The notes under the pieces were generated by a model that did not search any database, was not told where the DNA came from, and saw only the letters and a program-made list of their open reading frames with translations. A DNA stretch of 64,000 nucleotides. It comes from Cellvibrio sp. PSBB006. GTDB taxonomy: Bacteria; Pseudomonadota; Gammaproteobacteria; Pseudomonadales; Cellvibrionaceae. The stretch lies in assembly GCF_002162135.1 (NCBI RefSeq), contig NZ_CP021382.1, positions 4,400,001-4,464,000 on the forward strand, read 5' to 3'. This document shows positions 20,569-39,385 of this stretch, one piece after another; position 1 is the first letter of the stretch, and each line of letters begins with the position of its first letter. Position numbers and translations under genes: made by a program.

Positions 20569-21618
20569 ATGAAAGATGACAAACCGACTTCGTTTGATAT
20601 TGCCTATCTCGCGGGAGTGTCCCAATCGACCGTCTCGCGCGCCCTGCGCAACAGCCCTTTGGTTAATGAAGAAACCCGCCTCAAGGTGCAGGCCATTGCC
20701 AAAGAATTAAATTACAAGGTTGATAAAAATGCGCGCAACCTTCGCTCGCAGCAAACCCGCACCATTGCCTTGTTGTTGTGTGAAGATCACGGCACTGGCG
20801 ATTCACTGATCAACCCGTTTTTCCTCTCAATGCTGGGGAGTATTACCCGCGCCTCGGCCAATCGCGGTTACGATTTATTAATTTCATTTCAGCAATTCAG
20901 TGAAGACTGGCATGCGGATTATGAGTACGCCAACCGCGCGGACGGCATTATCTTTTTAGGTTACGGTGACTATGTGACCTATGTGCAAAAGCTCACCTAT
21001 TTGACGCAAGTAGGCGCGCACTTTATTACCTGGGGTCCGGTGCTGGAAGGGCAGCCGGGCTTTTCTATCGGTTGCGATAACTTCAACAGCGCTCACAAAG
21101 CGACCCACCATTTAATTCAGTTAGGCCATAAGAATATTGCGTTCCTTGGTGATATCTCTGAACACAGCCCGGAATTCAAAGCGCGTTACGAAGGCTACGC
21201 CAAAGCCTTGCAAGATGCCGGGTTACCGGTAAACCCACAACTACAAATCAATGCAGAAACTTCTGAAGAGGAAGGTTATAAAGCCACACTTAAATTACAG
21301 CAACGACGCATTGAGTTTGATGCTGTGTTTGGTGCGAGCGACCTGATTGCGATTGGTGCAATCAAGGCATTGGAGGAGGCTGGTTTGATTATTCCTGATG
21401 ATGTGGCGGTGATGGGTTTTGATGATATTCCTATGGCGTCTTACACGCATCCGCCGTTGACCACTGTGCAACAAAATACACATTTGGCAGGAGAATTGCT
21501 GGTAGAAAATCTGCTGAAGCTGGTGGATGGTGAGGCTGTTGAGTCTTTGTTGTTGCCGGCGGAGTTGATGGTGCGGGGGTCGTGTGGGGCTAAAAAATCT
21601 TCAAAGAAAATCTCTTAA
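20569..21618 (+). CDS. LacI-family regulator, probable controller of the glucan locus
   Basis: 349 residues. The helix-turn-helix lies at residues 8-27 (FDIAYLAGVSQSTVSRALR). The hinge helix NARNLRS (about 54-60) is of the type that inserts a leucine into the central CpG of a palindromic operator. A periplasmic-binding-protein-like sensor domain follows (about 64-340), with the family's VMGFDDIPMASYTHPPLTTV segment. It lies at one end of the starch locus. The ATACGTAT palindromes there have a central CG, as LacI-family operators do. It is the best candidate to bind them, with a maltose-like sugar as effector; this is inference. A GATGGAGAT site precedes ATG 20569. Confidence 0.9.
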   Translation: MKDDKPTSFDIAYLAGVSQSTVSRALRNSPLVNEETRLKVQAIAKELNYKVDKNARNLRSQQTRTIALLLCEDHGTGDSLINPFFLSMLGSITRASANRGYDLLISFQQFSEDWHADYEYANRADGIIFLGYGDYVTYVQKLTYLTQVGAHFITWGPVLEGQPGFSIGCDNFNSAHKATHHLIQLGHKNIAFLGDISEHSPEFKARYEGYAKALQDAGLPVNPQLQINAETSEEEGYKATLKLQQRRIEFDAVFGASDLIAIGAIKALEEAGLIIPDDVAVMGFDDIPMASYTHPPLTTVQQNTHLAGELLVENLLKLVDGEAVESLLLPAELMVRGSCGAKKSSKKIS

Positions 21619-23486: not shown

Positions 23487-25940
23487 TTAGTCCTTAGGTT
23501 GTGCGTAGCGTTCTTCTACCAGCGGGTAGCGGTCCCACACTTTTTGATCGTGAAAGGAGCGCAATAATTTAATGTATTCCGCATGGGTCCAGGCCAGCGG
23601 CGTGGCGGAGTTGGTGCCTTCGCCGAAGCCGTATTGGTATCCGCCATTATTGCCCACGCCATCCCAGACTTGCTCGGGTAACATTAACCCTTCGTTGGCA
23701 AATAATTCCATCGCTTTGACATAGATATTGCGCAAGGTGTCCATGCTTGCAGCGTCGATATCGCCCTCGACTTGCGCCCGTGCAAGTTCGTAATGGCCGC
23801 GTTCGCCGGTAAAGAAGGGCCACACGCGACCGCGTTGGTCATCGCTCATCTGATCATTCACTGCACCGTAAGCCAGGCCAGTGGTGATGTCTTCACCATA
23901 ACCATCGATGCCGTAACGTCGCCAGCCGGGGAAGGTGCCTTCTACGCCGGGAAACGTAAATTCATATTTTACGCGCAGTTTATCCGGCAGATTCATGTTG
24001 TCGATTTCGGGCAAGGTGTCGAGCACATAGGGATCATTCGCCGGACGCACACCGTAGCGCACCAATTCCAGAAAGCCTCCATCGATAACGTCGGTTTCGT
24101 CGGGCATGGGTTGGCCATTGGCGGTACCCAAAGCGGCGCGATCATTGGGGTCAGTATTTTGAGTAATGCGTAAATAATAACGGCCGTCGCTGGGTGCATC
24201 TTGCAGCGAGCCGTTGGTGGTGAACATGGTGCTTTCGAGCATAGCGGAATATTTATCGGCGGCCGCAAGATAACGCGTTGCACTGCTTTCGTCATCGGCC
24301 AGACGCGCAAGGTCAGCAGCCGATACCAATCCGGCAATCACGGCTGCGGTGGTGGAGGGCGAATAACCGGATTGTTCTTCCCAGCGTTCCTGTTGGGTGT
24401 AGGGCGGTGTTAAGTCAATGTCACTCCAATCCAGTTTAACTTTGCCACCGCTTGCCAGAAAGTCGGCTGCCGGTTTTAGCATGCGGTGATACCAACGTGT
24501 GGCTTCATCATCACTGAGCACGCCTTCCTGCCACAAACGCCAGCCGAGCATCACTGGCATAGCAGTTTGATCCAGTTGTATCGCAATCCATTCCAGTTGT
24601 CCGTCCACTTGGGTTTTTTGTAAAAACCAGCCAGGTGTGCCGGTAAAACCGGGTGTCGTCTTGGTGACTTGTACTTTGTGCAGATATTCGAAAGCAACCT
24701 TGGGGGTTTCTTTATCGCCCAAGGCCAACATAGCCATCGCCACCTGATAAAAATCGCGCGGCCAAACGGCTTTGTAACCAGTCTTGGATTGTTCGGCGGA
24801 TTTGGTGTCGCCCCAGGGATTGGACAGTGACGCAATCAAGGCGCCTGCATGGGTTTTATCTTCCTGTGCTTTTAACACCAGTGCGCTGGCATAAAGTAAT
24901 TTACCGTTGTCGGTAGTGGTCGATGATAGCTGCGTTAATGCCGGCAGGGATTGCACGTAATCTTCCCAACCAATAGCAGCACCTTCGCCGTTATAATTTG
25001 CCAACACGTGTTCATACCCGGCAGACAATGTGTGCTGTGCACTTGCCTTGCTTTCGGCCGGATCTTTTCCAAAACCGAGTACGAATTGCCATTCAGCATT
25101 GGTGTTGCTTAACGTAGGTAACTGTAGCAAAAGCGCAACGTTACCGCTTTGCTTGCCAGTATCCTGATAAGCGATAAAATCGGTTTTATTTTTTATTGCA
25201 TCAAGCCCATCTGAAGCGCCGACAAAACCGACCGTGCTTTTGGTAACGGTGGCATCTGTCTTTAACGCCAGGGCTGTGCTGCCGTCCTGCGCATACCAGG
25301 TGTTATCGTCAAACCAGGCGCGATCGGCACTGCCGGTATTGGCAATATGCGGATCAAGATACAGATAGGGTTTGATGTTGTCGGCTAGCGCGCGGAAAAA
25401 TACTTTCATCACCAGGCTGTTGCGGTCCGGATCAGTGAAAATATGTTTTTCAATTTCGTACTTACCTTCTTTGTCTTTGTTGACAATTTTGTAAGCCAGC
25501 GACAGCGGGCGACCCGCGTCATCGGTGTGCAAATATTCGATATGACTGATGGTGTCTTTTTTCTCTTCGTCAACAAAACCGTCACCGGATACAAAGAACT
25601 GCATCTCGCGCAACTGTGCTTCATGAATCAAACCGAACATGGTTTCGGTAACGACGCCTTGAGCAAGAGAAAACCACACGCGGGAAACCGGGCCGGTAGC
25701 GGCGCTATCAGTATAATGGCCCTCCTGATATTGCTCGTAAGAAGTTCCGATACCGGTCTTGCCTGAGTAGGCCCAGAGGGACTCTTTCCCCGGCGCGCCT
25801 GGCGCAACGCTTGCGTCTGTATCTTCAGAAGGAGAAGGGCTGCACGCGACGAGTGCCGTCATACTGCCGGCCAGTAAAAATTTAAGTGCCGGACGAGCAG
25901 CAGGAAAAAAACTGGTGCGCGGTTTTGTCGGATGGTTCAT
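23487..25940 (-). CDS. GH15 glucoamylase/glucodextranase-type lipoprotein
   Basis: 817 residues, exported as a lipoprotein: the lipobox LVAC places the lipidated cysteine at C33. An N-terminal beta-sandwich domain of the bacterial glucodextranase/glucoamylase type (about 50-335) is followed by the (alpha/alpha)6 barrel. WPRDFYQ lies at 393-399. RWEEQSGYSPST (519-530) carries the general-acid glutamate, and PEQVW (about residue 755) carries the likely general base. It would release glucose from non-reducing ends of malto- or isomalto-oligosaccharides at the periplasmic or outer-membrane face. It is the first gene of a minus-strand unit with the symporter, divergent from GH13 at 26481. Confidence 0.93.
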   Translation of the reverse strand: MNHPTKPRTSFFPAARPALKFLLAGSMTALVACSPSPSEDTDASVAPGAPGKESLWAYSGKTGIGTSYEQYQEGHYTDSAATGPVSRVWFSLAQGVVTETMFGLIHEAQLREMQFFVSGDGFVDEEKKDTISHIEYLHTDDAGRPLSLAYKIVNKDKEGKYEIEKHIFTDPDRNSLVMKVFFRALADNIKPYLYLDPHIANTGSADRAWFDDNTWYAQDGSTALALKTDATVTKSTVGFVGASDGLDAIKNKTDFIAYQDTGKQSGNVALLLQLPTLSNTNAEWQFVLGFGKDPAESKASAQHTLSAGYEHVLANYNGEGAAIGWEDYVQSLPALTQLSSTTTDNGKLLYASALVLKAQEDKTHAGALIASLSNPWGDTKSAEQSKTGYKAVWPRDFYQVAMAMLALGDKETPKVAFEYLHKVQVTKTTPGFTGTPGWFLQKTQVDGQLEWIAIQLDQTAMPVMLGWRLWQEGVLSDDEATRWYHRMLKPAADFLASGGKVKLDWSDIDLTPPYTQQERWEEQSGYSPSTTAAVIAGLVSAADLARLADDESSATRYLAAADKYSAMLESTMFTTNGSLQDAPSDGRYYLRITQNTDPNDRAALGTANGQPMPDETDVIDGGFLELVRYGVRPANDPYVLDTLPEIDNMNLPDKLRVKYEFTFPGVEGTFPGWRRYGIDGYGEDITTGLAYGAVNDQMSDDQRGRVWPFFTGERGHYELARAQVEGDIDAASMDTLRNIYVKAMELFANEGLMLPEQVWDGVGNNGGYQYGFGEGTNSATPLAWTHAEYIKLLRSFHDQKVWDRYPLVEERYAQPKD

Positions 25941-26085: not shown

Positions 26086-26132
26086 ACGTTAGGTGGAGAC
26101 TCCTTGAAATACAAGGGTTTACATACGTATTC
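26086..26132 (-). promoter_or_regulatory. ATACGTAT operator plus promoter for GH15-transporter unit
   Basis: The palindrome ATACGTAT at 26123-26130 is followed on the minus strand, after 8 nt, by TTGTAT (26114-26109). After a 17-bp spacer comes TAACGT (26091-26086). The -10 match is weak, but the 8-nt gap is identical to that in the three other promoters of the locus. Transcription would start near 26079 and read the GH15 gene. Confidence 0.5.
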
Positions 26133-26157
26133 ACGCAGATGAAACGCAGCGGCGGTA

Positions 26158-26173
26158 TTGCATACGTATGCAA
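26158..26173. promoter_or_regulatory. ATACGTAT operator (16-bp perfect palindrome)
   Basis: TTGCATACGTATGCAA is perfectly palindromic with a central CG. It is the most symmetrical copy in the window and lies midway in the divergent control region, 39 bp from the copy serving the GH15 promoter. It is a candidate auxiliary site for the LacI-family regulator. Confidence 0.7.
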
Positions 26174-26201
26174 CAATGGCCGCCAATTTTATCCATCAAA
26201 T

Positions 26202-26213
26202 GAATACGTATTC
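26202..26213. promoter_or_regulatory. ATACGTAT operator
   Basis: GAATACGTATTC is a perfect 12-bp palindrome, 42 bp from the previous copy and 50 bp upstream of the copy next to the GH13 promoter. It is a candidate auxiliary binding site. Confidence 0.7.
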
Positions 26214-26251
26214 TATGGGTTTTGCGGTCTTATTTCGTGGCGCGAGCATAT

Positions 26252-26299
26252 GCATACGTATGTAAGCTCTTGCACACAGGAACAGCGCTGACGTATTTT
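26252..26299 (+). promoter_or_regulatory. ATACGTAT operator plus promoter for GH13 alpha-glucosidase
   Basis: The palindrome at 26254-26261 (GCATACGTATGT) is followed after exactly 8 nt by TTGCAC (26270-26275), an 18-bp spacer and TATTTT (26294-26299). The predicted start is near 26306, giving a leader of about 175 nt to ATG 26481. Nothing else is recognised in that leader. Confidence 0.55.
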
Positions 26300-26480
26300 G
26301 GATTTAGTCAATTCTTTACCCTCCTGCCAGGGCTGTTGAACTTTCGTGGCAGAAGACGTACCCAGGATTAAAACCGAAAAAAGCAATTCATAATAAAGCG
26401 TCAGGATAACAATTTATGTGCCCCGCAATTTTTCCAGAAAGAGTAACCAGCGTTTTTGCCCGCTGTAGTGAGGTGTCATT

Positions 26481-28154
26481 ATGAGTCAGACCCCTTGGTG
26501 GCGTGGCGCCGTCATTTATCAAATTTACCCGCGCAGTATGATGGACAGCAACGGTGATGGTATCGGTGACTTGCCCGGTATCATCCAGAAGCTGGATTAC
26601 ATTGCCAGCCTGGGCGTGGATGCCATTTGGATCTCGCCCTTTTTTAAATCACCCATGAAAGACTTTGGTTACGATATCAGTGACTATCGATCTATTGATC
26701 CGATCTTCGGTTCTCTTGATGATTTTGACCGCTTGATCAAGCGCGCGCACAGTTTGGGTATCAAGGTGATTATCGATCAGGTGTTGAGCCATACCTCGGA
26801 CCAACACGCCTGGTTTCAGGAGAGTCGCACCTCCAAAGATAATCCCAAAGCCGATTGGTATGTCTGGGCAGACCCTCGTGAAGACGGTACACCGCCGAAT
26901 AACTGGTTATCAATTTTCGGCGGTTGTGCCTGGGAGTGGGAGCCGCGCCGCGGGCAGTATTACCTGCACAATTTTTTAAAGAGCCAACCGGATTTGAATT
27001 TTCATTGCGCAGAAGTACGTAAGGAAATTCTGGATGAAGTAGAGTTCTGGTTAAAGCGCGGCGTCGACGGCTTGCGTCTGGACGCGATTAATTTTTGCTT
27101 TCACGATCAGCAGCTGCGCAACAACCCCCATAAGCCCGTTCATGAACGTAAAGGACGGGGATTTAAGGAAGATAATCCTTACGCATTCCAATACCACATC
27201 TACGACAATACGCGCCCGGAAAATATTGCCTTTTTGCAATCCCTGCGCGGCTTGATGGATCGCTACCCCGGCTCGGTCACGCTTGGCGAAATTTCAGCGG
27301 AAGATTCACTGAAAACCATGGCGGAATACACCACCGGACAATCCCGTTTGCACATGGCTTACAGTTTTGAATTGTTGGTCGATAAAATGTCGGCATCATA
27401 CATTCGCCAAACGGTTGAAACACTGGAAGCGGGGTTGAAAGAGGGATGGCCTTGCTGGTCGATCGGCAATCATGATGTGGTGCGGGTAATGTCGCGTTGG
27501 GGCGGAAAGAAACCCGACGATAAACTGGCCCGTATGCTTAACGCCATGTTGCTGTCCCTGCGTGGCAGCGTGTGCAGTTACCAGGGCGAAGAGTTAGGTT
27601 TAACCGAAGCCGATATTCAACAGGATCAATTGCAAGACCCTTACGGCATCGCATTCTGGCCGATGTTTAAAGGGCGTGACGGCTGCCGTACACCCATGCC
27701 GTGGGAAGCGGACAGTGCGCATTGCGGTTTTTCCACCGCTGCCACCTGGTTACCGATTCCTGATGATCATCGCGAGCGTGCGATAGAGCTACAGGAAAAA
27801 GCTCCGGATTCGGTGCTCAATCATTATCGACAATTCATGCAGTGGCGAAAACAGCAACCGACTTTGCGTTTGGGCAGCATTCACTTTATTGATGCGCCGG
27901 ATGATGTATTGATGTTTGTGCGTGAATACGAGGGCGAACGCATGCTGGCGGTTTTTAATTTATCTTCAGCATCCAGGACGGTGGCTTTGGCCAACATCAA
28001 TATTAAAAGTTTGCTCGATGGGCATGGCTTTGACACTACCGCTATGGAAGAAGAGTCTTTGATTGTTGAGGGCTTTGGTGTGTTCTTCGCAAGCGTCAAT
28101 ATGTCCGTGGAAGATGCGTCAGTAGAAAACGTGTTGCTGGCTCAGTCGCCGTAA
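26481..28154 (+). CDS. Cytoplasmic GH13 alpha-glucosidase
   Basis: 557 residues without signal peptide. GH13 regions are clear: VIYQIYPRS and GDGIGDLPG near the N-terminus, VIIDQVLSHTS (97-107), DGLRLDAINF with nucleophile D201, TLGEIS with acid/base E270 and GNHDVVR with D332. The sequence style is that of the bacterial alpha-glucosidases of GH13 subfamily 23 that split maltose and short maltodextrins. Being cytoplasmic, it would act on sugar brought in by the symporter at 21894. A GAGGTG site precedes ATG 26481. It is controlled by the operator-promoter at 26252-26299. Confidence 0.93.
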   Translation: MSQTPWWRGAVIYQIYPRSMMDSNGDGIGDLPGIIQKLDYIASLGVDAIWISPFFKSPMKDFGYDISDYRSIDPIFGSLDDFDRLIKRAHSLGIKVIIDQVLSHTSDQHAWFQESRTSKDNPKADWYVWADPREDGTPPNNWLSIFGGCAWEWEPRRGQYYLHNFLKSQPDLNFHCAEVRKEILDEVEFWLKRGVDGLRLDAINFCFHDQQLRNNPHKPVHERKGRGFKEDNPYAFQYHIYDNTRPENIAFLQSLRGLMDRYPGSVTLGEISAEDSLKTMAEYTTGQSRLHMAYSFELLVDKMSASYIRQTVETLEAGLKEGWPCWSIGNHDVVRVMSRWGGKKPDDKLARMLNAMLLSLRGSVCSYQGEELGLTEADIQQDQLQDPYGIAFWPMFKGRDGCRTPMPWEADSAHCGFSTAATWLPIPDDHRERAIELQEKAPDSVLNHYRQFMQWRKQQPTLRLGSIHFIDAPDDVLMFVREYEGERMLAVFNLSSASRTVALANINIKSLLDGHGFDTTAMEEESLIVEGFGVFFASVNMSVEDASVENVLLAQSP

Positions 28155-28186
28155 ATTTGTATTAGTCATAGTCCTTTCCCTTGCAG

Positions 28187-28220
28187 TGTCGGATTACGCC
28201 TTTGGCTAATCCGACCTACG
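28187..28220. repeat. REP-like palindrome, copy B
   Basis: TGTCGGATTACGCC TTTGG CTAATCCGACCTACG, about 30 nt after the stop of the GH13 alpha-glucosidase gene. Same family as copies A, C and D. One base is missing on the right arm compared with copy A. Confidence 0.75.
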
Positions 28221-28288
28221 CTATTCTTGTGTCTGCGCTGCTACCTTTTCTTTTTCTTCTATCTGCCAACTTTCGGTTTTCTTTTTTT

Positions 28289-28355
28289 GCATACGTATGC
28301 GTTTTGCTGAATACGTATGCATTCTATTGTGGGGAGGTTGGCGCGGATTTACTAT
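28289..28355 (+). promoter_or_regulatory. Tandem ATACGTAT operators plus promoter for pullulanase operon
   Basis: Two palindromes (28291-28298 and 28311-28318) have centres 20 bp apart, about two helical turns. The second is followed after 8 nt by TTGTGG (28327-28332), a 17-bp spacer and TACTAT (28350-28355). The block is repeated almost exactly at 36404-36470 (same -35, same -10, same spacings). Transcription would start near 28362, leaving a leader of about 285 nt before the pullulanase ATG; no known riboswitch is recognised in it. Confidence 0.7.
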
Positions 28356-28646
28356 CTTTACAAACAATTACCAGAAGTTTCTACGACAGCTTTTCTTGCA
28401 GTACGCGTGCCTCGCATGCGAATGGTATCGACAAGATATATAAGATTTAACGAAAGCCATTGTACGTTTTTCCATAAACAAGACTGTGAACAATTTAAAA
28501 CTATAAACAACTCTCTGAGGTTAGTGAGAAACGCTGTCTCGCTGTAGAACCACATTTTTCCCAAGAACAGAAAATTTCCAACACTGTAAACCAGCATATT
28601 CATCTACACCGTTTTAAAACAATAACGATTAGTGGGGTAACAAACC

Positions 28647-31600
28647 ATGTTTAATTTACGCAATAAATTGGGGCTCATCGCGCTGGTCTGCTCATTGGCA
28701 GGCCTGGCAGGCCTGGCGGGATGCGGGGGTGGTAGTGGTACGGACAATGAACAAGCGAATTTACCGGCGTGCCGCGATCCACTGGTTATTCTTGATGATG
28801 GGTCTTGTGGGGAGCCGCGTGATCCTTATGTTCCGCCACCTTGTCCTGAAGGACAAATTCGCAACAGCCTGGGCGCTTGTATTGTTCCGGATTTTCCGAC
28901 ACCCAGCCGGCTTCCTGGCGAAAATGAAGTTGTTATCTACGTCAACATCGAAGGTACTGAAGACGAAAAAAATGCAGCCTATGCTGGTTACAACCTGCAC
29001 CTGTGGCAGGCCTGCGGCAATGGTTGGGCTGATTCAACGGTCGATGGAAACAACACATCCTGGAGCATTCCCACAGAGTGGCCCGATGGTCCGAATGTAA
29101 GCAGCCGAAATGATGGTGAGTCCGGCATCAAACATGATCCCTATTACGGTGCTTTCTTTGTTATTCCTGCCAGTGAAACCGGTGGTACTTGCGGTAACTA
29201 TATTGTTAAAACGCCTGGCGGGGCAGCCCAGACCAACGACCTGCAAATGCAGATAAAGCGCAATGGCGGCGATTATGATCGCATGGCTTTTATTATCGTT
29301 AACGCAACTGACATGCGTAACAGCCGCATCAGCGATATTCCGATTTGCATTAACGATATTTGTACTCTAGAGCAACCGCTATTGACCATTACCGATGTGG
29401 AGGCCCACTGGATCGGTACGCACACGATTATCTGGAATCGCGAATTTTCACCCGATAAAAAAATCGAACTTTACCGCTCAACCGCTGGTGGTATGAGCGG
29501 TGCAGAAGATGGCAGCGTTACCGGCGGAACCTTGGTTGCTGAATTGAGCCCTGGCCGCGAGATGACGGATGAAGAAAAAGCGTTAGTGCCGCACTTGGCT
29601 TCTTACTTTGCCTATGATTTACCGCCAGATATTTCTCTCGACACCATCAAGTCAGCCATCAAAGACGAACTTCTAATTGTTGGCCGTTATGATTCGATAG
29701 AAGAGGATGAGCAAGGCGAAAGTGTCACGATAGAACGTGCCCGTGCAACACGGATTCAATTGCCCCATGTATTGGATGCGCTCTACACCAGTGGTGAAAA
29801 CGACGCTGATGAAGCAACGTTAGGTGTTACTTATGGCGAAGGCGTTGGTGTGTCCTTGTGGGCGCCTACTGCGCAAAATGTAGAGCTGCGCATTTATTCC
29901 GGTGACCCGTTGCGCATTGCGGATACGCAACCCATGAGCTTTGATAATGCAACCGGTATCTGGCACTACCAGGGAACAGCAGCGGAGTTAGATCGCAAGT
30001 TCTACCGTTTCCGTGTAACCACCTACAACCCGGTTACCAAAAAAGTATATCGCCTGGAAGTGACTGATCCCTATTCAATTTCCCTGTCAACAAACAGCCG
30101 TTACTCGCAATTTGTTAATTTTGCCGATGAAGATCTGAAGCCTGCCGGTTGGGATGGCCACGCAGTGCCCGAGGTAACCGCGCCGGAAGCCGCGAGTATC
30201 TATGAAATTCATGTGCGCGATTTCAGTGTTGACGATGAAAGTACTTCCGCTATGCATCGCGGCAAGTACATGGCATTTACCGAGGCTAATAGTGCACCGG
30301 TTATGCACTTGCAAGAGTTGGCCAATGCCGGATTAACCTACGTGCATGTGTTGCCATCCAATGACTTCTCCAGTGTTAACGAAGACGGCTCGGCGCAAAT
30401 CAATCTCGACAGTTTTGTCTACGAACTATGCCAACGTGTTTCCGATCCGGATTCAGTGAATGCCTGCGATGGTTCATTCAGTAACTCAGCCACCTTGCGC
30501 AGTGTCCTGGAAAGCTTTGATCCACAAACTGACCAGGCCCGTTCGCTTGTTGCCGCTATGGCCAACCTCGATGGTTTCAACTGGGGTTATGATCCGCAAC
30601 ATTTCAATGCGCCGGAAGGTAGCTACGCCACAGATCCAGACGGTTTTGCCCGTATCAAGGAAATGCGTGCAATGAATATGGCCTTACATCAAATGGGTCT
30701 GCGCGTGGTATTGGATGTGGTTTACCCCCACACGATTTCATCGGGCGTAGAAGTCGCGAACTCTGTCTTCGATAAAGTGATTCCGGGTTATTACTATCGC
30801 ACCAATCCCGCCACCGGACTTGCGGAACAGGGCACGGGAGCTGGTCCGGATACTGCAACAGAACATCGCATGATGGCTAAGTTTGTAAAAGACTCTGTTG
30901 TGCAATGGGCGCAGGAATATAAGTTTGACGGCTTCCGTTTTGATCAATCCGGCTTTATGCCCAAATCTGTTCTGGTTGAAGCATTTGACGCGGTTAAACA
31001 AGTCGATCCGGATAATTATTTCTACGCAGAAGCCTGGGCACCGCACGGTGGTACCTCTGGTGACCGTATCGCAGAACGCGCTATGCAGGAGGCTCTGGCC
31101 GGTACGGGCATTGGTACCTTTAATGATCGCATTCGCAATCCATTGCAACAGTTCAACTTAATCAAAGGCGGAAATGTTGATGCGATTCGTGCGGGTATGG
31201 CCGGCAACCTGAAAGATTTTGAAATCAAAGCCAGAAATGGTGCGGTGATCAAAGCAGAAGCGGTGGGTGCTTATAATCTTGATCCGCAGGAAGCCGTCAA
31301 CTACGTTGAGAAACACGATAACGAAACCCTGTGGGACTGGATGCATCGCCCCGATGCTATTCCGGTAGATACTCCGCTGGAAAATCGTGTGCGGATTCAT
31401 AACCTGACGTTATCAATTCCATTATTGAGCCAGGGTGTTCCGTTTATTCATATGGGCAGCGATTTATTGCGCTCCAAATCCATGTCACCTAACAGTTATA
31501 ACGCGGGTGACTGGTTTAATCGGGTGGATTTTACCCGTACCACCAATAATTGGTCCGTGGGTTTGCCACCGGAATTGCGCGATGGCATTACCGATGATTA

Positions 31601-33149
31601 CGTGATGGGTTTGTTTGCCAATCCGCAAACCAAAGCCGGCAGTCAGGATATTGAAATGGCAGCCATGGTATTCCAGGAATTCCTGGCTATCGCCAGCAGC
31701 AGCCCGCTGTTCAGTCTGCAAACGGCTGAAGAGGTGATTGATCGGGTCGGCTTCCACGATGGCGGTATGAATTATCAAGCCGGTTTGATCGTAATGAGCA
31801 TTGATGATGGTGCGGGTACCGTTTATGGCACTGACTCAACCGCGCGAGCTGATCTTGATCCCTCGGTCGATGCAATGGTCGTCATCGTCAATGGTACAGC
31901 TGAAAATAAAACTGCCAAGGTCATCGGTTCTACAGGGTTTGCTCTGCACGATACGTTGCAAAGTTCTGTTGATGCAAATGTACGTACCGCCACGTTTGCT
32001 GAAGCAGTTGGTGAGGAAGATGGTGGCACGTTCACTGTACCGGCTTACACCACTGCCGTGTTTGTAAAAAACCAGGCGGGTGCCCAGGGAGTAGGTTTGG
32101 ATGCACGCGGCACCTTGGATTTATCCGAGCAAGAGCCGCCCACCTACGCTAATACCATTCATGTGCGTGGCAGTATTTACGATGCGGGCTGGAGTGCTGA
32201 CAGTGGTAATGAGATGGCATACCACGGCAAAGGTATCTACTCAGTCGTACTGGACGTATTACCAGGCAGTTACGCATTTAAGATTGCCGACGCAAATTGG
32301 AGTGGTCCAAACCTCGGCAGTACCCAAGCATTAGCGGTAGGTGGTTCTATTACCTTAAACAACGCTTCTAATAGTAGTGATATCAATATTGAAATCACTG
32401 AGGCGGGTACTTACCGTTTTGAATTAGATACCTCTGCCAATCCCGACAGTCCGATACTGAGCGTTTTCCCGGATGCATTTGCTGGTGTAACGGCGCATGT
32501 GCGCGGCGATATTTCTACTGCCGGTTGGGATGCGAGTATCGACAATATGTTGACCTATGAAGGCAAAAGGATTTATGCATTGATCGTCGATGTGACGGCG
32601 TCCGATCAGGCTCGCGAATTTAAAGTGGCCAGTGAGGATTGGTCGAGTGTGAACCTCGGCGGAGATCTTGTGGTTTCATTAGGGGATGCTACGCCGCTGG
32701 TCGTTGGCTCCAATGACAATTTGGAAATTCAGTTGACTACGTCGGGCCGCTATCGTTTTGAAGTGAATATGCAAAATCCGGCGGCGCCAGTATTGCGTGT
32801 TTATATCGACGATCTGTTCAGTGCAACGCCCGCCTATTTACCCGGTGAGATTTCGTCGGTCGGTTGGAATTTTTCAGAAGATAATCGCCTGACTTATCGC
32901 GGTGCGGGTTTATATCAACTCACCTTATCCGTTGCTGCAGGTAACTACCAATTTAAAGTAGCGGGTTCGGATTGGAGCAACCCCAATCTGGGTGGCCCGG
33001 AGATAGAGCTCGGAGACGCTTTCGAATTAACGCAAGGCAGCAACGACAATATCCGGCTTGCCGTGCCTGCCGATGGTGACTACTTATTTACCGTAAATAC
33101 CACCGTCGCGGACGCCATAACCATCCAGGTGGACTCCCTTAATCCCTAA
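28647..33149 (+). CDS. Pullulanase-type GH13 lipoprotein with CBM41, CBM48 and three C-terminal repeats
   Basis: 1500 residues. The signal ends in lipobox LAGC (C26). Domains in order: a CBM41/PUD-type module (about 90-230), a linking beta domain, a CBM48-like module (about 395-490, GVSLWAPTAQNVEL), and the GH13 barrel. The pullulanase motif FNWGYDP lies near 644, nucleophile D766 in GFRFDQSG, acid/base E795 in YAEAW and D891 in HDNETLW. Three tandem modules of about 107-112 residues follow (from about 1169, 1281 and 1393), each with HVRG/LPGE...GW...Y.G.GIY...FK.A...WS.(P)NLG; they look like starch-binding SusE/X25-type modules. It would split alpha-1,6 links at the cell surface or periplasm. 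First gene of the operon starting at the promoter 28289-28355. Confidence 0.93.
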   Translation: MFNLRNKLGLIALVCSLAGLAGLAGCGGGSGTDNEQANLPACRDPLVILDDGSCGEPRDPYVPPPCPEGQIRNSLGACIVPDFPTPSRLPGENEVVIYVNIEGTEDEKNAAYAGYNLHLWQACGNGWADSTVDGNNTSWSIPTEWPDGPNVSSRNDGESGIKHDPYYGAFFVIPASETGGTCGNYIVKTPGGAAQTNDLQMQIKRNGGDYDRMAFIIVNATDMRNSRISDIPICINDICTLEQPLLTITDVEAHWIGTHTIIWNREFSPDKKIELYRSTAGGMSGAEDGSVTGGTLVAELSPGREMTDEEKALVPHLASYFAYDLPPDISLDTIKSAIKDELLIVGRYDSIEEDEQGESVTIERARATRIQLPHVLDALYTSGENDADEATLGVTYGEGVGVSLWAPTAQNVELRIYSGDPLRIADTQPMSFDNATGIWHYQGTAAELDRKFYRFRVTTYNPVTKKVYRLEVTDPYSISLSTNSRYSQFVNFADEDLKPAGWDGHAVPEVTAPEAASIYEIHVRDFSVDDESTSAMHRGKYMAFTEANSAPVMHLQELANAGLTYVHVLPSNDFSSVNEDGSAQINLDSFVYELCQRVSDPDSVNACDGSFSNSATLRSVLESFDPQTDQARSLVAAMANLDGFNWGYDPQHFNAPEGSYATDPDGFARIKEMRAMNMALHQMGLRVVLDVVYPHTISSGVEVANSVFDKVIPGYYYRTNPATGLAEQGTGAGPDTATEHRMMAKFVKDSVVQWAQEYKFDGFRFDQSGFMPKSVLVEAFDAVKQVDPDNYFYAEAWAPHGGTSGDRIAERAMQEALAGTGIGTFNDRIRNPLQQFNLIKGGNVDAIRAGMAGNLKDFEIKARNGAVIKAEAVGAYNLDPQEAVNYVEKHDNETLWDWMHRPDAIPVDTPLENRVRIHNLTLSIPLLSQGVPFIHMGSDLLRSKSMSPNSYNAGDWFNRVDFTRTTNNWSVGLPPELRDGITDDYVMGLFANPQTKAGSQDIEMAAMVFQEFLAIASSSPLFSLQTAEEVIDRVGFHDGGMNYQAGLIVMSIDDGAGTVYGTDSTARADLDPSVDAMVVIVNGTAENKTAKVIGSTGFALHDTLQSSVDANVRTATFAEAVGEEDGGTFTVPAYTTAVFVKNQAGAQGVGLDARGTLDLSEQEPPTYANTIHVRGSIYDAGWSADSGNEMAYHGKGIYSVVLDVLPGSYAFKIADANWSGPNLGSTQALAVGGSITLNNASNSSDINIEITEAGTYRFELDTSANPDSPILSVFPDAFAGVTAHVRGDISTAGWDASIDNMLTYEGKRIYALIVDVTASDQAREFKVASEDWSSVNLGGDLVVSLGDATPLVVGSNDNLEIQLTTSGRYRFEVNMQNPAAPVLRVYIDDLFSATPAYLPGEISSVGWNFSEDNRLTYRGAGLYQLTLSVAAGNYQFKVAGSDWSNPNLGGPEIELGDAFELTQGSNDNIRLAVPADGDYLFTVNTTVADAITIQVDSLNP

Positions 33150-33163
33150 ATCTTGTCGATCAT

Positions 33164-33184
33164 CCCCCTCCTGCGCGGAGGGGG
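33164..33184 (+). other. Stem-loop between pullulanase and TonB receptor genes
   Basis: CCCCCTCC / GGAGGGGG, a perfect 8-bp GC stem with a 5-nt loop, lies in the 79-bp gap. No T-run follows, so it is more likely an mRNA-stabilising or partial-termination structure than a full terminator. It may set different expression of the two genes. Confidence 0.6.
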
Positions 33185-33228
33185 CTCAGAACAACAAATA
33201 GCAAAGATAACGAACTGAGATCACGCAC

Positions 33229-36207
33229 ATGAAAACATTTTCTCTAAAGCCCCTGGCAATTGCGATGTCCGGGTTGACGTTGGCCTCCCTGAGCCAGATT
33301 TCCTTCGCACAAAACGATGAAGAGTCGGCAGACCCTATTGAAGAGTTGGTGGTAGTTGGCTACGCCAAATCAATTCAAAACAGCCTTGATACCAAACGCA
33401 ATGCCGATACAGTTGTACAAGCAATTTCTGCCGCTGACCTGGCCGGTTTACCGGATGTCTCTATTGCTGATGCGCTGGCGCGAGTGCCGGGCATTACGGT
33501 TACCCGGTCAGGCGGACAGGCCAGTACCATCCAGGTGCGTGGTATGGGTGAAGGTTTTGTGTTTTCTACCTTAAATGGTCGGGAGCAGGTATCGCCTAAC
33601 GGTACGCGGGCGATGGAGTTCAGCCAGTTTCCATCAGAGCTGATTCAATCGGTGGAAGTTTATATGTCTCCCAAGGCATCCCTGATCGAAGGGGGGGTTG
33701 CGGGCTCCGTTGAATTAAAAACAGTGAATCCACTGGATATGACCGAAGATCAGCGCTTTGTAATCGGTGTACGCGGCAGCTACAACGATCAGGCGAGTGA
33801 TATCTACGGTGCGGAAGCCTATGGGCAACGTTACACCTTGTCGTTCCAGAAAAAATTACTGGATGACACATTAGGTGTTGCCTTGGGTTATGCGCGCCTC
33901 GTACAACCGCGCGCAGCGAGTCGATTCGAGCATTACAATTACGAAGCCACGCCACTATCGCTGATCAACGACGCTGGCGTTAATATTCATGTCGTGGACG
34001 AAAATTTTAACCAACTACCTACGGAGGACCGGCCGTTCAATGTCGCCATTAGCGATGGCTTTGAGTTATTTCAAACTGGTGGCGAAGAAGTGCGAGATGG
34101 TTTTGTGGGTGCATTGCAATTTGAGCCTAATGACAACTGGAGTATTCAGTCCGATGTCTTTTATTCCAAGTTTACTTCGGACAGTTATTCGCGCGGATTC
34201 CGTGTACAGCCGTTGCGCAACTCTACCATTACCAATGTCGTGTTGTGGAACAACAGCGCTGTGGTGGGCGGTGAATTTGGTGTAAGTGATCAGAGCCCCA
34301 CATCATTTGATTTGCAAGTGAACAGTAATGACGTAACCCTGGAAAATGAACTGATTGCAGGTGGTTTCAATGTGGAGTGGCGCCAGGATGCGTTGACGCT
34401 GTCGTTGGACTTGTCTCATTCTGAAGCATCCGGCGTGCAGGCGGATGGCGTGGTGCGCGCACATATGTACCGACCGATAGAAGATCCTGTACCGGGTCTT
34501 GATCCTTACGAGCGTGACCCTGACCAATCCATGGTTTACTTGCTGGACGGTATTGATTTACCCAGTGTGAATTTCAGTCGTAATTATGCTGAGTATGATT
34601 CCAATGGCGTCAGTAATTTGCGCATGACAAACTATGAGCGCTACCCGCGTATCAACGATGATGTCATTAGTGCAGTACGTATGGATGTGGAATATGAATT
34701 TGATATGCCGGTGATACGTTCGGTGGAAGCTGGCGTGCGTTACTCGGAACGCAATCACCAGGATCAACGCCAGGTATTTGTATACGGTGACGGTGCAGCG
34801 GGTACCATTGATACGGATTTCTCACTGCCGATTACTACGGAAAATTCTGACATTGTGGAATGGAAAGGTGATTTTGACCGGTTTCCTTCATTCCTCGCCA
34901 TTGATGGTGATGCCATCATCCGTGAAGCCCATGCAAACGGTTTGGTCTTGACCGGTGTGCCGGATTTTTCCGATGTCGAAGCTGTTCCCCGCTCACTTGA
35001 GCCGGCTGCGCGATGGGGAGAAGGGCGTGATTGGTCAATGAAACAACGCTCCGATATTGATGAAAATATCACAGCACTGTATCTCCAGGCCAATATTGAA
35101 ACCAGCCTGTTCGGTAAAGACCTTACCGGTAATATCGGCCTGCGCCATGTACGCACAGATCAATCCAGTGTAGCGCTGGTTAATGTGAATGGCAGCGTGG
35201 AAAACGGCGCAGTAGAAATTTGTGATGAAGTAGGTGAGTGCAGAAGTGAATTTGCTTATCAACGATTAGGTATTGAGTACAGCGATAATTTACCTTCGCT
35301 GAACCTGAATTATCAATTGGCAGAAAACGATCAACTTCGTTTGGCTCTCGCGCGCGTACTGTCGCGGCCGCCCATCGCACGGCTTGCAGCTCCGGACTCC
35401 GAGGGTACGGTGACGGTTCAGGCTGGTGATATTCCCACATTTAATTACGGTTCCAATACGTCGCCTTTCCTGCGTCCATTTATTGCTGACCAGATAGACA
35501 TTTCCTACGAACATTATCTGCCTGAATACAACGGTGCATTTGTTATTGCCGGTTATCATCGTGAAATTAAATCGTTTATTCAGGATATCACTTATCAGGA
35601 TTTCGACTTCAGGGCTGCGGGATTCGATGTGCCTGATACCTGGATTATTACCGACCAAGGTGGCGTGGACGTTGAGGTACCGGTAGAGAATGGTGATTAT
35701 TCAACATCAATCAATAATCTGGACGGCGGTTTTATTCGCGGGATTGAAATTTCTTATACCCAAACCTTCAATTTCCTGCCTGACTTGTGGTCCGGTTTGG
35801 GTGTCAGCACCAGCTACTCCCTGACCGACAGTGAAATCAATGTGAGCAACCCATTAGAAGGAATTGAAACGGCAGGTACGCTACCGTTTCCCGGTCTGGT
35901 AGAAAAGTCAGCAAACTTTACGGTGTTTTACAGTTATGAAAACTTCGAAACCCGGTTGTCAACAACGTACCAGGACTCTTTTGTTGGTGAGACCCGTAAC
36001 GTCAATCTCCAGCCCATTGTCTACGCTCCAGAGACATTGCTGGATTATCAGGCATCCTACAAATTTGATAATGGGATAGATGTGATATTTTCAGTAAGTA
36101 ACCTGACTAACGAGCCTAATAGAAGCTATATGTTTGACGAAGAACTAACCAGGACATTGCAGTGGTTCGGAAGAACGTTTTACCTGGGGGCAAATTACTC
36201 ATTTTAA
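33229..36207 (+). CDS. TonB-dependent receptor (first of the glucan locus)
   Basis: 992 residues, normal for the large carbohydrate-type TonB-dependent receptors of the Caulobacter/Xanthomonas kind. A signal peptide ends near SQISFAQ. A TonB-box-like EELVVVGY lies at about 38-46, and the plug domain follows (about 60-180, with VSIADALARVPGITV and VRGMGEGFVFSTLNGRE). A 22-strand barrel follows, ending in the outer-membrane signature aromatic F (YLGANYSF). It would import malto-oligosaccharides across the outer membrane using TonB energy; the substrate is inferred from neighbours. It reads on from the pullulanase gene and ends at a strong terminator. Confidence 0.92.
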   Translation: MKTFSLKPLAIAMSGLTLASLSQISFAQNDEESADPIEELVVVGYAKSIQNSLDTKRNADTVVQAISAADLAGLPDVSIADALARVPGITVTRSGGQASTIQVRGMGEGFVFSTLNGREQVSPNGTRAMEFSQFPSELIQSVEVYMSPKASLIEGGVAGSVELKTVNPLDMTEDQRFVIGVRGSYNDQASDIYGAEAYGQRYTLSFQKKLLDDTLGVALGYARLVQPRAASRFEHYNYEATPLSLINDAGVNIHVVDENFNQLPTEDRPFNVAISDGFELFQTGGEEVRDGFVGALQFEPNDNWSIQSDVFYSKFTSDSYSRGFRVQPLRNSTITNVVLWNNSAVVGGEFGVSDQSPTSFDLQVNSNDVTLENELIAGGFNVEWRQDALTLSLDLSHSEASGVQADGVVRAHMYRPIEDPVPGLDPYERDPDQSMVYLLDGIDLPSVNFSRNYAEYDSNGVSNLRMTNYERYPRINDDVISAVRMDVEYEFDMPVIRSVEAGVRYSERNHQDQRQVFVYGDGAAGTIDTDFSLPITTENSDIVEWKGDFDRFPSFLAIDGDAIIREAHANGLVLTGVPDFSDVEAVPRSLEPAARWGEGRDWSMKQRSDIDENITALYLQANIETSLFGKDLTGNIGLRHVRTDQSSVALVNVNGSVENGAVEICDEVGECRSEFAYQRLGIEYSDNLPSLNLNYQLAENDQLRLALARVLSRPPIARLAAPDSEGTVTVQAGDIPTFNYGSNTSPFLRPFIADQIDISYEHYLPEYNGAFVIAGYHREIKSFIQDITYQDFDFRAAGFDVPDTWIITDQGGVDVEVPVENGDYSTSINNLDGGFIRGIEISYTQTFNFLPDLWSGLGVSTSYSLTDSEINVSNPLEGIETAGTLPFPGLVEKSANFTVFYSYENFETRLSTTYQDSFVGETRNVNLQPIVYAPETLLDYQASYKFDNGIDVIFSVSNLTNEPNRSYMFDEELTRTLQWFGRTFYLGANYSF

Positions 36208-36225
36208 TTGTCTTGAAGTGTTGTG

Positions 36226-36252
36226 CCGCACAGACAACTGTGCGGTTTTTTT
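36226..36252 (+). terminator. Rho-independent terminator after first TonB receptor
   Basis: Perfect 8-bp stem CCGCACAG/CTGTGCGG, 4-nt loop, followed by seven T. It ends the pullulanase-receptor transcript; the second receptor has its own promoter. Confidence 0.92.
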
Positions 36253-36403
36253 ATGAACGCGTCGGTTGACGATTATCACGTCAGCTAATAACTATTCCGC
36301 TTTTCCATTTCCACTCTTATTAATTAATATCCTGTTGATTACCCATAATGCAGCTAAGCTCAGTAGAAAGCCCCGTTTGGGAATAAATGTCTGGAACGGC
36401 AAT

Positions 36404-36470
36404 GCATACGTATGCGAACCGTTGAATACGTATGCACGCTATTGTGGGCATTAGCGCCACGACTTACTAT
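36404..36470 (+). promoter_or_regulatory. Tandem ATACGTAT operators plus promoter for second receptor operon
   Basis: Palindromes at 36406-36413 and 36426-36433 have centres 20 bp apart. An 8-nt gap follows, then TTGTGG (36442-36447), a 17-bp spacer and TACTAT (36465-36470). All spacings and both hexamers equal those at 28289-28355, and the text between them is also related (GCRC/ATTCTATTGTGGG). Transcription would start near 36477, about 113 nt before ATG 36590. Confidence 0.7.
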
Positions 36471-36589: not shown

Positions 36590-39385
36590 ATGAAAAAGCG
36601 CACTTTCAATCACGCATTGGCGTTAATGTCTACCATGGCATTGGTGTCAGGCTCAGTTAATGTCTACGCCCAAGCCGAGGATGCCGCACCCATTGAAGAA
36701 GTGGTTGTGACCGGTTTCCGGGCCAGTTTGCAAAATTCTATTTCTGCCAAGCAGAAGGCCACGTCCATTGTTGATGCTGTATACGCAGAAGACATTGGTA
36801 AATTACCGGATACCAGTATTGCTGAGTCGCTAGCGCGGCTACCCGGTTTGGGCGGTGAACGTCGCGACGGCCGCACCAGTGGTATTTCTGTTCGTGGTTT
36901 TAATGAAAACTACGTAGCGACGACGATGAATGGTCGCGAAATTTTAGGTATTGGTGACAACCGCGGCGTTGAATACGATTTATACCCATCCGAAATTATT
37001 TCCGGTGCCATGGTGTACAAAACACCTGATGCCAGTTTGGTTAACCAGGGGTTAGGCGGTACTGTTGATTTACAGACTCTTCGCCCATTGGAGAAAGACC
37101 GCATTATCGGCATTACCGGCAGTTATGAAATGAACGAGTTGGAATCATCCAACCCGGATTATGATGATACCGGCCATCGGTTAGCATTTACCTATTCGGA
37201 TAAATTTGCCGACGATACCATCGGCGTAGCGCTTTCAATTGCGACTATGGAATCGCCCAGTCAAGAAGAACAATTTCGTGCGTGGGGTTACGCAGACCTT
37301 GATAATGAGGGACCCGGTGAAACGGTTGCTTTAGGCGGTCACGATTCTTACGTTCGTTCATCTATGATGGAGCGTGATACGTTTTCTGGCGTTGTGCAAT
37401 TCGCACCAAATGATCAATGGACATTTACATTAGACGCGCTGTACATCGATTTTACCGACTCCAAAGTATTTCGCGGTATGGAAGAGGGGACGGTATGGGG
37501 TGGTGGTGTAACAAACGTTCACTCAACGATTGAGGACAACCTGGTTACCAGTGGTGAATGGAATGGTTTTCACAGTGTTATTCGCAATGATGGCGAAGTA
37601 AAAGACGGTGAACTGACGACGTTTGGATTCAATGTTGAATATCAACTTTCTGATAGCTGGAAACTAACATTGGATGCAGCGACCGGCGAGTCATCAAAAG
37701 ATTTGTTGAATGTCGAGAGCTACTCCGGTGTTGGGCGTGCAGGTACTGCTTCCCAGGGTGATCCTGCAGCACGATCTTATGTACTGTCCGCCAATGGTGT
37801 GCAATACGGACCTCATTCCACGATCTCTATGCCCGACTACTCCAACCCGGCAAATATTCGTTTAGCTGGACCCCAGGCCTGGGGTGGCGCTATAGCGCAG
37901 GTGGTTGGTCAAAACAACGCACAAGACGGCTTTGTTAATAATCCGCTGTTTGAAGAAGATCTGGATACATTGCGTTTGCAAGCTGAAGGCGAAGTTGATT
38001 TCTCTATCATCAACAGCGTTGAGTTTGGTGTTAATTACTCTGATCGCAGTAAATCTAAAGTTAACTATGGTTCATTCCTGATCGCACCAGGATATTTTGC
38101 CGCTGATGGGGTTACGGTTGCAGGTGGCGATATTGCAGTGCCTGCGGATTATATTGTAGGTGCGGCAGATCTCAGCTTTTTAGGGTTGGGCAGTGTCCTG
38201 GCATATGACGGTATTGGTTTGTATAACGACGGTATTTATCGTGAAGTGGTCGCTGATCAATACGAGCCTTCACGTTTAGGTGATACCTATGAGGTCACCG
38301 AGAAAGTGACCACGGGTTATGCCATGGCGAACTTTGAGTCGGGCATTATCTCCGGTAATCTGGGTGTGCAAGTTGTTCATACAGACCAAACTGCAACCGG
38401 CTATGACGCTTATACCGGTGAGGAAGGTACTGTTGTTGCGACGCCGGTTTCAGATGGCGACAAATACACGAAAGTATTACCCAGCCTGAACATGAATTTC
38501 CAGGTAACCGACGATCAGGTGGTGCGTTTTGCTGCATCGAAAACTGCATCGCGGGCGCGTATGGATTCCATGAAGCCGGGTGATACGATCAACTTCAGTT
38601 TTGATGCAGCGCGCCGTGGCAGTTCCGATCCTGACTTCAGTGCATGGGATGCTTCATCGGGTGATGCAGCCTTGAAGCCGATTGAGGCTGTTCAGGTGGA
38701 TCTTGCCTACGAATATTATTACGCAGAAGACGGCCTTGCATCGGTTGCTCTATTCCATAAAGACATTCAGAACTGGCATGTTAACAACCGGACATTGACG
38801 GATTTTTCTGATTACGTCATCGCTGGCTACCACGATGCAGATATTCCTGAGCTGGTATCAACCACAGGATATACCACAGCAATTGCTGAAGCGGGTGATG
38901 GCTACGTAACGGGTGCGGAATTTCAGTTGAGTTTACCCTTCCACTTGTTCAGCGATGCTTTAGATGGATTGGGTTTAACCACCAGCTATACATTGCTTGA
39001 TGGTGAAATCGAAGTGGACGGTGCCAAGCAAGAAATTCCGGGCTTGTCTGATGAAATGTACCAATTGACCGTTTACTATGAGAAAAATGGTTTCGAGTTC
39101 CGTGTGAGTGGACGCAAGCGTGATGAGTTCCTTACCGAAGAACGCGGTGTCAGTCTTTCATTGGTGCCAATCACGGATCGCGGTGCTGAGTTGTGGGATG
39201 CGCAAGTCGGTTACAACTTTAGTGAAAGTGGTATTCGCGGATTGGAAGGGCTGACAATCACCTTGCAAGCGCAAAACTTCACCGACGAAGATACCGTAAC
39301 TGCTGATGCCGATGATCCGCGTCGCGTCAGCAAGTACCAACACTTCGGTGCTAACTACTTGTTAGGCTTCAACTACAAATTCTGA
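36590..39385 (+). CDS. TonB-dependent receptor (second of the glucan locus)
   Basis: 931 residues with a signal peptide (MKKRTFNHALALMSTMALVSGSVNVYAQ) and TonB-box-like IEEVVVTGF at about 36-44. The plug domain has DTSIAESLARLPGLGGERR and ISVRGFNENYVATTMNGRE, and a barrel follows ending in F (LLGFNYKF). The sequence clearly differs from the first receptor but has the same architecture, so it may import another oligomer size or branch type. CGGAGAG lies before ATG 36590. It is followed by a terminator and then by the halogenase-like gene, so downstream genes are probably expressed by partial read-through. Confidence 0.92.
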   Translation: MKKRTFNHALALMSTMALVSGSVNVYAQAEDAAPIEEVVVTGFRASLQNSISAKQKATSIVDAVYAEDIGKLPDTSIAESLARLPGLGGERRDGRTSGISVRGFNENYVATTMNGREILGIGDNRGVEYDLYPSEIISGAMVYKTPDASLVNQGLGGTVDLQTLRPLEKDRIIGITGSYEMNELESSNPDYDDTGHRLAFTYSDKFADDTIGVALSIATMESPSQEEQFRAWGYADLDNEGPGETVALGGHDSYVRSSMMERDTFSGVVQFAPNDQWTFTLDALYIDFTDSKVFRGMEEGTVWGGGVTNVHSTIEDNLVTSGEWNGFHSVIRNDGEVKDGELTTFGFNVEYQLSDSWKLTLDAATGESSKDLLNVESYSGVGRAGTASQGDPAARSYVLSANGVQYGPHSTISMPDYSNPANIRLAGPQAWGGAIAQVVGQNNAQDGFVNNPLFEEDLDTLRLQAEGEVDFSIINSVEFGVNYSDRSKSKVNYGSFLIAPGYFAADGVTVAGGDIAVPADYIVGAADLSFLGLGSVLAYDGIGLYNDGIYREVVADQYEPSRLGDTYEVTEKVTTGYAMANFESGIISGNLGVQVVHTDQTATGYDAYTGEEGTVVATPVSDGDKYTKVLPSLNMNFQVTDDQVVRFAASKTASRARMDSMKPGDTINFSFDAARRGSSDPDFSAWDASSGDAALKPIEAVQVDLAYEYYYAEDGLASVALFHKDIQNWHVNNRTLTDFSDYVIAGYHDADIPELVSTTGYTTAIAEAGDGYVTGAEFQLSLPFHLFSDALDGLGLTTSYTLLDGEIEVDGAKQEIPGLSDEMYQLTVYYEKNGFEFRVSGRKRDEFLTEERGVSLSLVPITDRGAELWDAQVGYNFSESGIRGLEGLTITLQAQNFTDEDTVTADADDPRRVSKYQHFGANYLLGFNYKF

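Follow-up and report, generated by a model that had tools for sequence, protein, structure and literature searches.

A conserved operator-to-promoter register suggests that the LacI-family regulator MalR of a Cellvibrio starch locus is an activator

Does the LacI-family regulator MalR, encoded in a starch and maltodextrin locus of Cellvibrio sp. PSBB006, repress or activate its target genes? The question arose from an earlier note on a stretch of 64,000 nucleotides of this genome (contig NZ_CP021382.1, positions 4,400,001 to 4,464,000; this whole stretch is called the window below). The note described palindromic sites at a constant distance upstream of four promoters, which belong to the genes for a GH15 glucan 1,4-alpha-glucosidase, a GH13 alpha-glucosidase-like enzyme, a pullulanase, and a TonB-dependent receptor (Table 1). 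Two options were offered, namely that the regulator activates or that the -35 and -10 boxes had been wrongly chosen. Judging from the anatomy of these promoters and of their counterparts in other genomes, MalR is probably an activator that touches RNA polymerase.

For all measurements the palindrome was taken as the 8-bp core ATACGTAT; measured from a 14-bp palindrome the gap to the TTG is 5 nt and not 8 nt. With the core definition the coordinates of the earlier note hold. In all four promoters the core is followed after exactly 8 nt by a hexamer TTGnnn, and this hexamer after 17–18 bp (17, 18, 17, and 17 bp) by TAnnnT. When the putative starts are set 7 nt after the -10 box, which is a convention and not a measurement, the operators are centred at -47.5 (GH15), -48.5 (alpha-glucosidase), -47.5 (pullulanase), and -47.5 (TonB receptor), in agreement with the proposed position near -47. 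The second site claimed to lie 20 bp further upstream in two promoters was also found (cores at 28291 and 36406). The operator–operator distances in the window are 20, 39, 42, and 50 bp. As the window's two TTGTGG promoters are alike, they do not count as two independent cases. The pullulanase promoter (28291–28355) resembles the TonB-receptor promoter (36403–36470) as if it had been copied; the pullulanase gene of a congener has a promoter with the TTG at +5, i.e. 5 nt after the core.

The window contains nine ATACGTAT cores, eight of which fall within the three promoter regions of the earlier note. The stricter pattern RMATACGTATKY matches the genome 11 times, compared to three matches for the control, and 8 of the 11 matches are situated in the window. 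Elsewhere in the same genome two strong operators without the +8 layout are found 108 bp apart between divergent open reading frames (ORFs; L050:6318 and L050:6426, corresponding to G000:C1:2984315 and 2984423).

The conservation of the register was assessed in the genus, where 208 of 305 sites from 18 of 21 genomes were examined; coverage is near-complete for six genomes and mostly restricted to the malR locus for the rest. Seven genomes of other genera contributed 45 of their 60 sites, giving a total of 253 sites from 25 genomes. Of these, 34 sites inside ORFs of at least 100 aa were left out, as were sites near locus ends. The fetched pieces of G002 and G008 (short contigs) contain no core, the tandem promoter of G006 lies outside the stretch examined for that genome, and G005 is without a close malR. 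The two flanks of each palindrome served as mutual controls, and a flank was called gene-facing if no other site precedes the gene start.

On the gene-facing, promoter-proximal flanks of the genus a TTG is located at +8 in 74 of 128 cases, at +7 in none, and at +9 in two. By contrast, only 1 of the 94 flanks facing no gene has a TTG at +8 (Fisher 3e-22 against 74/128, with orthologues not being independent). Flanks with another site in between show it in 17 of 154 cases, mostly as part of the TTGAAT of the next operator. In the other genera the TTG is at +8 on 11/32 gene-facing versus 0/30 control flanks. Counting TTG and TAnnnT jointly on the 128 flanks, we found 45 with the combination +8/17, 21 with +8/18, one with +8/19, 12 with +5/17, six with +5/18, and one other, whereas no joint cell exceeds 1 on the 94 control flanks.

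Three promoter classes could be aligned across up to 18 genomes of the genus, including our own. The TTG is found at +8 in 18/18 GH15 promoters, in 18/18 alpha-glucosidase promoters, and in 18/19 promoters with tandem operators, the sole exception being G018, which reads TTC. The TAnnnT is spaced by 17 bp in all 18 GH15 promoters; in the alpha-glucosidase promoters the spacing is 17 bp in 16 and 18 bp in two, and among the 19 tandem-operator promoters it is 18 bp in 14 and 17 bp in four, the element being absent in one. The alignment columns of the spacer carry 0.5–0.9 bits and those of the TTG 1.7–2 bits. In these sets insertions and deletions have been tolerated in the spacer that separates the two boxes, and likewise in the interval of the tandem operators (19 or 20 bp), but none is seen between operator and -35 box.

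In the genus and the other genera together there are 85 promoter-proximal flanks with the TTG at +8, of which 51 are distinct, meaning that they share less than 60% identity; this refers to sequence and not to gene, so that orthologues from distant species count separately. A TAnnnT is present in 46 of the 51 (spacing 17 in 27 and 18 in 19). This set of 46 was selected for a TTG at +8 and a TAnnnT at 17 or 18, and therefore the first three letters of the -35 box and the ends of the -10 box are fixed by the selection. Both elements, TTG and TAnnnT, persist in orthologues whose spacers have diverged, and they turn up again in promoters of distinct sequence; it is therefore unlikely that the boxes were wrongly chosen.

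The operator has a direction, and which way it is oriented correlates with the register. Where its G side points to the gene, 74 of 101 gene-facing flanks have the TTG at +8 and seven show the +5 register, i.e. a TTG at +5 with a TAnnnT at 17 or 18; with the T side towards the gene, the TTG is at +8 in 0 of 27 and the +5 register in 11. It is from the comparison of 74/101 with 0/27 that we deduce the directionality. By half-site, a TTG at +8 was counted on 91 of 246 G-side and on 1 of 130 T-side flanks. The +5 register precedes a pullulanase gene in congeners (L063, Pullulanase_N2, G side) and genes for CBM26 starch-binding proteins (L141 and L157, T side). Examples of it are L157:2536, L141:8735, L102:1503, L159:2512, L135:2542, and L063:17618, among others.

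Apart from the TTG, the -35 boxes are poor. The consensus letters A, C, and A after the TTG are present in 7, 6, and 8 of the 46 distinct promoters, which does not exceed the composition of the spacer (one-sided test for depletion, p 0.07, 0.03, and 0.13), and position 4 of the -10 box is an A in 2 of 46. A search of our genome for the consensus TTGACA-N16-18-TATAAT gave no match (control 1) and hence no strong-promoter yardstick for the genus. The core promoters are also free of operators: between the operator and about +70 no operator-like site was found in any of the 46 promoters (the best score was 0.4, compared to 9.0 for the weakest true site). Hidden operators were thereby discarded, and the arrangement of a classical LacI-type repressor, whose operator overlaps the core promoter or lies downstream of it, is seen in 0 of 46 up to about +70. 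The promoters do have two traits of a contact activator (class II-like), namely a site fixed beside the -35 box and a -35 box that is poor, as judged against spacer composition, or missing. Anti-activation together with CRP, as known from CytR, was also considered and rejected. CRP-like matches with at most two mismatches occur in 9/46 promoters versus about 10% of shuffles, and matches with at most three in 23/46 versus about 57%; such sites exceed the shuffles only slightly and are scattered in position.

We then turned to a wider set comprising the best 80 of 566 loci from named genomes, with MalR proteins 57–82% identical. Fifty of these best 80 loci contain 93 cores. Nineteen loci have a TTG at +8 with TAnnnT at 17 or 18, on a total of 30 of the 186 flanks; at other offsets the combination came up in 3 of 5022 flank-offset trials. 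The 19 loci include two from Gilvimarinus, four of eight from Shewanella, Colwellia, Paraglaciecola, and two assemblies labelled alphaproteobacteria.

A different picture emerged from the Xanthomonadales-type loci, 16 of 26 of which have a core and none a TTG at +8 plus a -10 box. Here a TAnnnT, mostly TACCAT or TACTAT, lies 31–32 nt after the core on 12 of 22 G-side flanks versus 0 of 22 T-side flanks. This is the place of the Cellvibrio -10 box (8+6+17 or 18), and none of the 12 flanks has a TTG at +8. With L231 and L255, which were added after their sequence had been seen, the count is 14/25 versus 0/25. Among the downstream genes checked are those for a TonB receptor (L258), glycoside-hydrolase-like proteins (L218 and L219), and an alpha-amylase (the added locus L255); at 5 of the 14 places no downstream gene was called.

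The regulator itself has an N-terminal LacI helix-turn-helix (PF00356, 56.8 bits, cut-off 27) and a periplasmic-binding-protein-like core (PF13377, 122.6 bits, cut-off 26.5). The ATACGTAT cores are palindromic with a central CpG, a trait of LacI/GalR operators, and we infer that MalR binds them. A weaker ATACGTAT core at 20317–20324, about 250 bp upstream of malR, might point to autoregulation. The match of MalR ends at residue 338 of 349, compared to residue 328 of 360 in LacI, so that a tetramerising C-terminal extension like that of LacI is missing. MalR remains below the cut-off of every NCBIfam model listed for it, among them those for Cra (NF008452, 65.6 of 385 bits), CcpA (TIGR01481, 131.8 of 442.35 bits), and E. 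coli MalI (NF007449, 101.6 of 310 bits).

The sites occur together with MalR. Relatives of MalR are 54–85% identical, and close ones (77–85% identical) are present in 19 of 20 congeners. Where a close MalR (E below 1e-100) is encoded, in 27 genomes, the median number of sites is 13 (range 3–27; control median 3); in the 30 genomes lacking one it is two (range 0–10; control median 2). G005, which alone among the congeners lacks a close MalR, has two sites versus seven control matches. In this genome (L267) an alpha-glucosidase gene is kept, 74% identical and in another context, with no ATACGTAT within 4500 bases there, an observation that is silent on the sign of regulation; a search for a pullulanase in G005 gave weak matches only.

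Activation by polymerase contact from -47.5 is favoured because the register is fixed, the boxes are poor, the core promoter is devoid of an operator, CRP sites are near background, and the tetramer tail is missing. In the mechanism we propose, MalR would be a dedicated activator of starch and maltodextrin genes. Its dimer would occupy the CpG-centred operator at about -47.5, directly upstream of a weak sigma70-type promoter (TTGnnn, 17–18 bp, TAnnnT), and the promoter-side subunit would contact RNA polymerase, either sigma region 4 or the alpha C-terminal domain, thereby offsetting the poor -35 box. Where a second operator lies 20 bp upstream, at the pullulanase and TonB-receptor promoters, it would place another dimer on roughly the same side of the helix, and this dimer may aid recruitment. 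Maltose or a maltodextrin would be the likely co-effector. Of the two options in the earlier note, activation is thus the one that gained ground, through the fixed register, the poor boxes, the operator-free core promoter, and the operator-to--10 distance kept where the -35 TTG is missing; the sign is still read from anatomy, and the second register does not sit easily with it.

Several observations weigh against an activator. The +5 register is found on 18 of 128 flanks (7 G-side and 11 T-side), and a contact activator should not easily tolerate a shift of 3 bp. Moreover, a TTG at +8 is missing from 54 of the 128 gene-facing flanks, with gene calls being crude, and none of the three sites of our own genome outside the window (L050 and L051) shows the +8 layout, L050:6318 having the +5 layout. 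The -35 consensus letters are only slightly depleted. In the Xanthomonadales-type loci 3 of the 12 flanks carry a TTG at +11, 3 nt further down and with a spacer of 15 bp; several of the 12 cases look orthologous, and the pattern had been seen by eye before it was counted, with the offset fixed beforehand by the Cellvibrio promoters. G026, from another genus and without a close MalR, has 10 sites versus five control matches. Finally, the maltose regulators named in PMC4451989, as far as the available part of that paper goes, include several repressors, and repression by contact would likewise need a fixed register. Such a repressor at -47.5 could in its sugar-free form block the access of sigma4 or alpha-CTD, or hold the polymerase inactive, until released by maltose. 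Repression is the usual sign of sugar regulators in the LacI family, and the maltose induction of XCC2469, a receptor gene of a Xanthomonas maltose locus, fits either sign (PMC1790865, seen in part). On the other hand, the boxes are poor and no operator-like site is found in or just below the core promoter, and a TAnnnT at a fixed distance where the TTG is missing makes a promoter with little activity to repress. A repressor working purely by blocking polymerase has no need of a register exact to one base upstream of the -35 box, and a promoter lacking that box would leave it little to repress. We therefore regard repression by contact or steric hindrance as unlikely.

The remaining explanations appear much less probable still. 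Two to four operators per promoter region of the window could suggest that they are bridged and the promoters silenced by looping. The missing LacI-like tail speaks against looping by a tetramer, the operator distances vary among orthologues, and the register is also kept where no second exact site lies within 300 bp (e.g. L137, L100, L170, and L177); looping repression was rejected on account of the tail and the variable distances, and we consider it very improbable. Just as improbable is an inherited register, by which paralogous genes were copied along with their promoters and the distance would be functionally meaningless. The two similar TTGTGG promoters of the window and the occurrence of several promoters before related genes within one genome would agree with copying, yet the register is common to 46 promoters whose sequences following the TTG are less than 60% identical, it reappears in other genera and orders, and the spacer varies in length while the linker between operator and -35 box does not. 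As to the binding protein, another LacI paralogue could take the place of MalR: some relatives carry paralogues of about 40% identity, some sites are far from malR, and G026 has its sites without a close MalR. However, among the matches listed, the other LacI proteins of the window genome are 31–33% identical, and G005, the sole congener lacking MalR, has two sites versus seven for the control; this explanation is very improbable as well.

How does this compare with known systems, cited here from the available parts of the papers? A close one is MalR of Shewanella, the predicted regulator of maltodextrin loci of the TonB-receptor type (Rodionov et al. 2010, PMC2996990; PMC3223726); its predicted sites precede the operons of the receptor, malZ, susB, and malT-cga (PMC2996990). 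Like MalR of the window it is a LacI-family protein of a maltodextrin locus, 61–65% identical in eight Shewanella loci; four of these eight have the register, and the other four have no ATACGTAT core in the stretch examined. In the accessible part of the Shewanella report (PMC2996990) we found neither a sign of action nor an operator–promoter distance. In the open-licence literature searched, as far as its text was available, we likewise found no published sign or geometry for a proteobacterial MalR, nor this register.

The earlier note called activation unusual for the family. This is fair, although there are precedents. Cra (FruR) and CcpA are LacI-family proteins able to activate (PMC4052901, PMC10766802); unlike MalR of the window, which scores far below their NCBIfam cut-offs, they are global regulators that can act with either sign. 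PMC4451989 cites the maltose regulator MalR of Lactococcus lactis, a Firmicute protein, as activating the mal regulon (Andersson and Radstrom 2002). MalR of Streptococcus pneumoniae likewise has a CpG-centred operator and differs in operator sequence and in sign, being a LacI-family repressor of pullulanase and amylase genes (PMC4451989). CytR shares with MalR of the window the family and, on the present proposal, the lack of classical occlusion; unlike it, CytR is an anti-activator acting with CRP (PMC3454398).

The features are compiled in Table 1. Further members of the locus are a transporter gene, amylase-type genes, and GH97 genes. An Rfam scan of 20000–48000 gave no RNA element above gathering score.

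Table 1. Genes, operator cores, and promoter boxes of the locus in window coordinates, and operator places in Xanthomonadales-type loci
Feature	Position	Strand	Remarks
malR, LacI-family regulator gene, proposed activator of the locus	20569–21618	+	PF00356 and PF13377 above cut-off
GH15 glucan 1,4-alpha-glucosidase, target	23487–25940	-	TIGR01535 above cut-off; PF00723
-10 TAACGT, GH15 promoter, 17-bp spacer	26086–26091	-	putative start ~26079; TAnnnT at 17 in 18/18
-35 TTGTAT, GH15 promoter	26109–26114	-	TTG at +8 in 18/18 aligned promoters
Proximal operator core, GH15 promoter	26123–26130, centre 26126.5		conserved in 18 genomes
Upstream operator core between divergent promoters	26162–26169, centre 26165.5		
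Upstream operator core between divergent promoters	26204–26211, centre 26207.5		
Proximal operator core, alpha-glucosidase promoter	26254–26261, centre 26257.5		conserved in 18 genomes
-35 TTGCAC, alpha-glucosidase promoter	26270–26275	+	TTG at +8 in 18/18 aligned promoters
-10 TATTTT, alpha-glucosidase promoter, 18-bp spacer	26294–26299	+	putative start ~26306
GH13 alpha-glucosidase-like enzyme (predicted activity), target	26481–28154	+	PF00128
Distal operator core of tandem pair, pullulanase promoter	28291–28298		20 bp from proximal core
Proximal operator core, pullulanase promoter	28311–28318, centre 28314.5		
-35 TTGTGG, pullulanase promoter	28327–28332	+	
-10 TACTAT, pullulanase promoter, 17-bp spacer	28350–28355	+	putative start ~28362
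Pullulanase, target	28647–33149	+	TIGR02103 above cut-off
TonB-dependent receptor 3' of pullulanase	33229–36207	+	TIGR01782 above cut-off; no ATACGTAT core upstream (window core list)
Distal operator core of tandem pair, TonB-receptor promoter	36406–36413		
Proximal operator core, TonB-receptor promoter	36426–36433, centre 36429.5		tandem pair in 17 genomes, 19–20 bp
-35 TTGTGG, TonB-receptor promoter	36442–36447	+	TTG at +8 in 18/19 tandem promoters
-10 TACTAT, TonB-receptor promoter, 17-bp spacer	36465–36470	+	putative start ~36477; TACTAT 13/19, TACCAT 5/19
TonB-dependent receptor, target	36590–39385	+	TIGR01782 above cut-off
Operator, then TACCAT 32 nt on, no TTG at the -35 place	L217:19359, L218:14914, L223:16707, L258:14283		Xanthomonadales-type loci

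What looks new here is the conserved register, which is kept where the -35 TTG is lost; activation by a LacI-family protein as such has precedents. A more general statement can be put forward tentatively, with its chances close to even: all proteobacterial MalR proteins may be obligate activators, whose operator in one main register supports the -35 box and in Xanthomonadales replaces it, the orientation setting the register in such a way that the G[CT]A half points towards a promoter with the TTG at +8, and a flipped operator goes with a promoter 3 bp closer. Annotations of LacI-family regulators usually take repression as the default. If the layout means activation, the sign assumed at starch loci in many Gammaproteobacteria would be reversed, and the operator–promoter register could predict the sign of LacI-family regulators from sequence alone. 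The promoters with an operator and a -10 box but no -35 TTG would offer a direct test of how a dimer of the LacI fold engages RNA polymerase.

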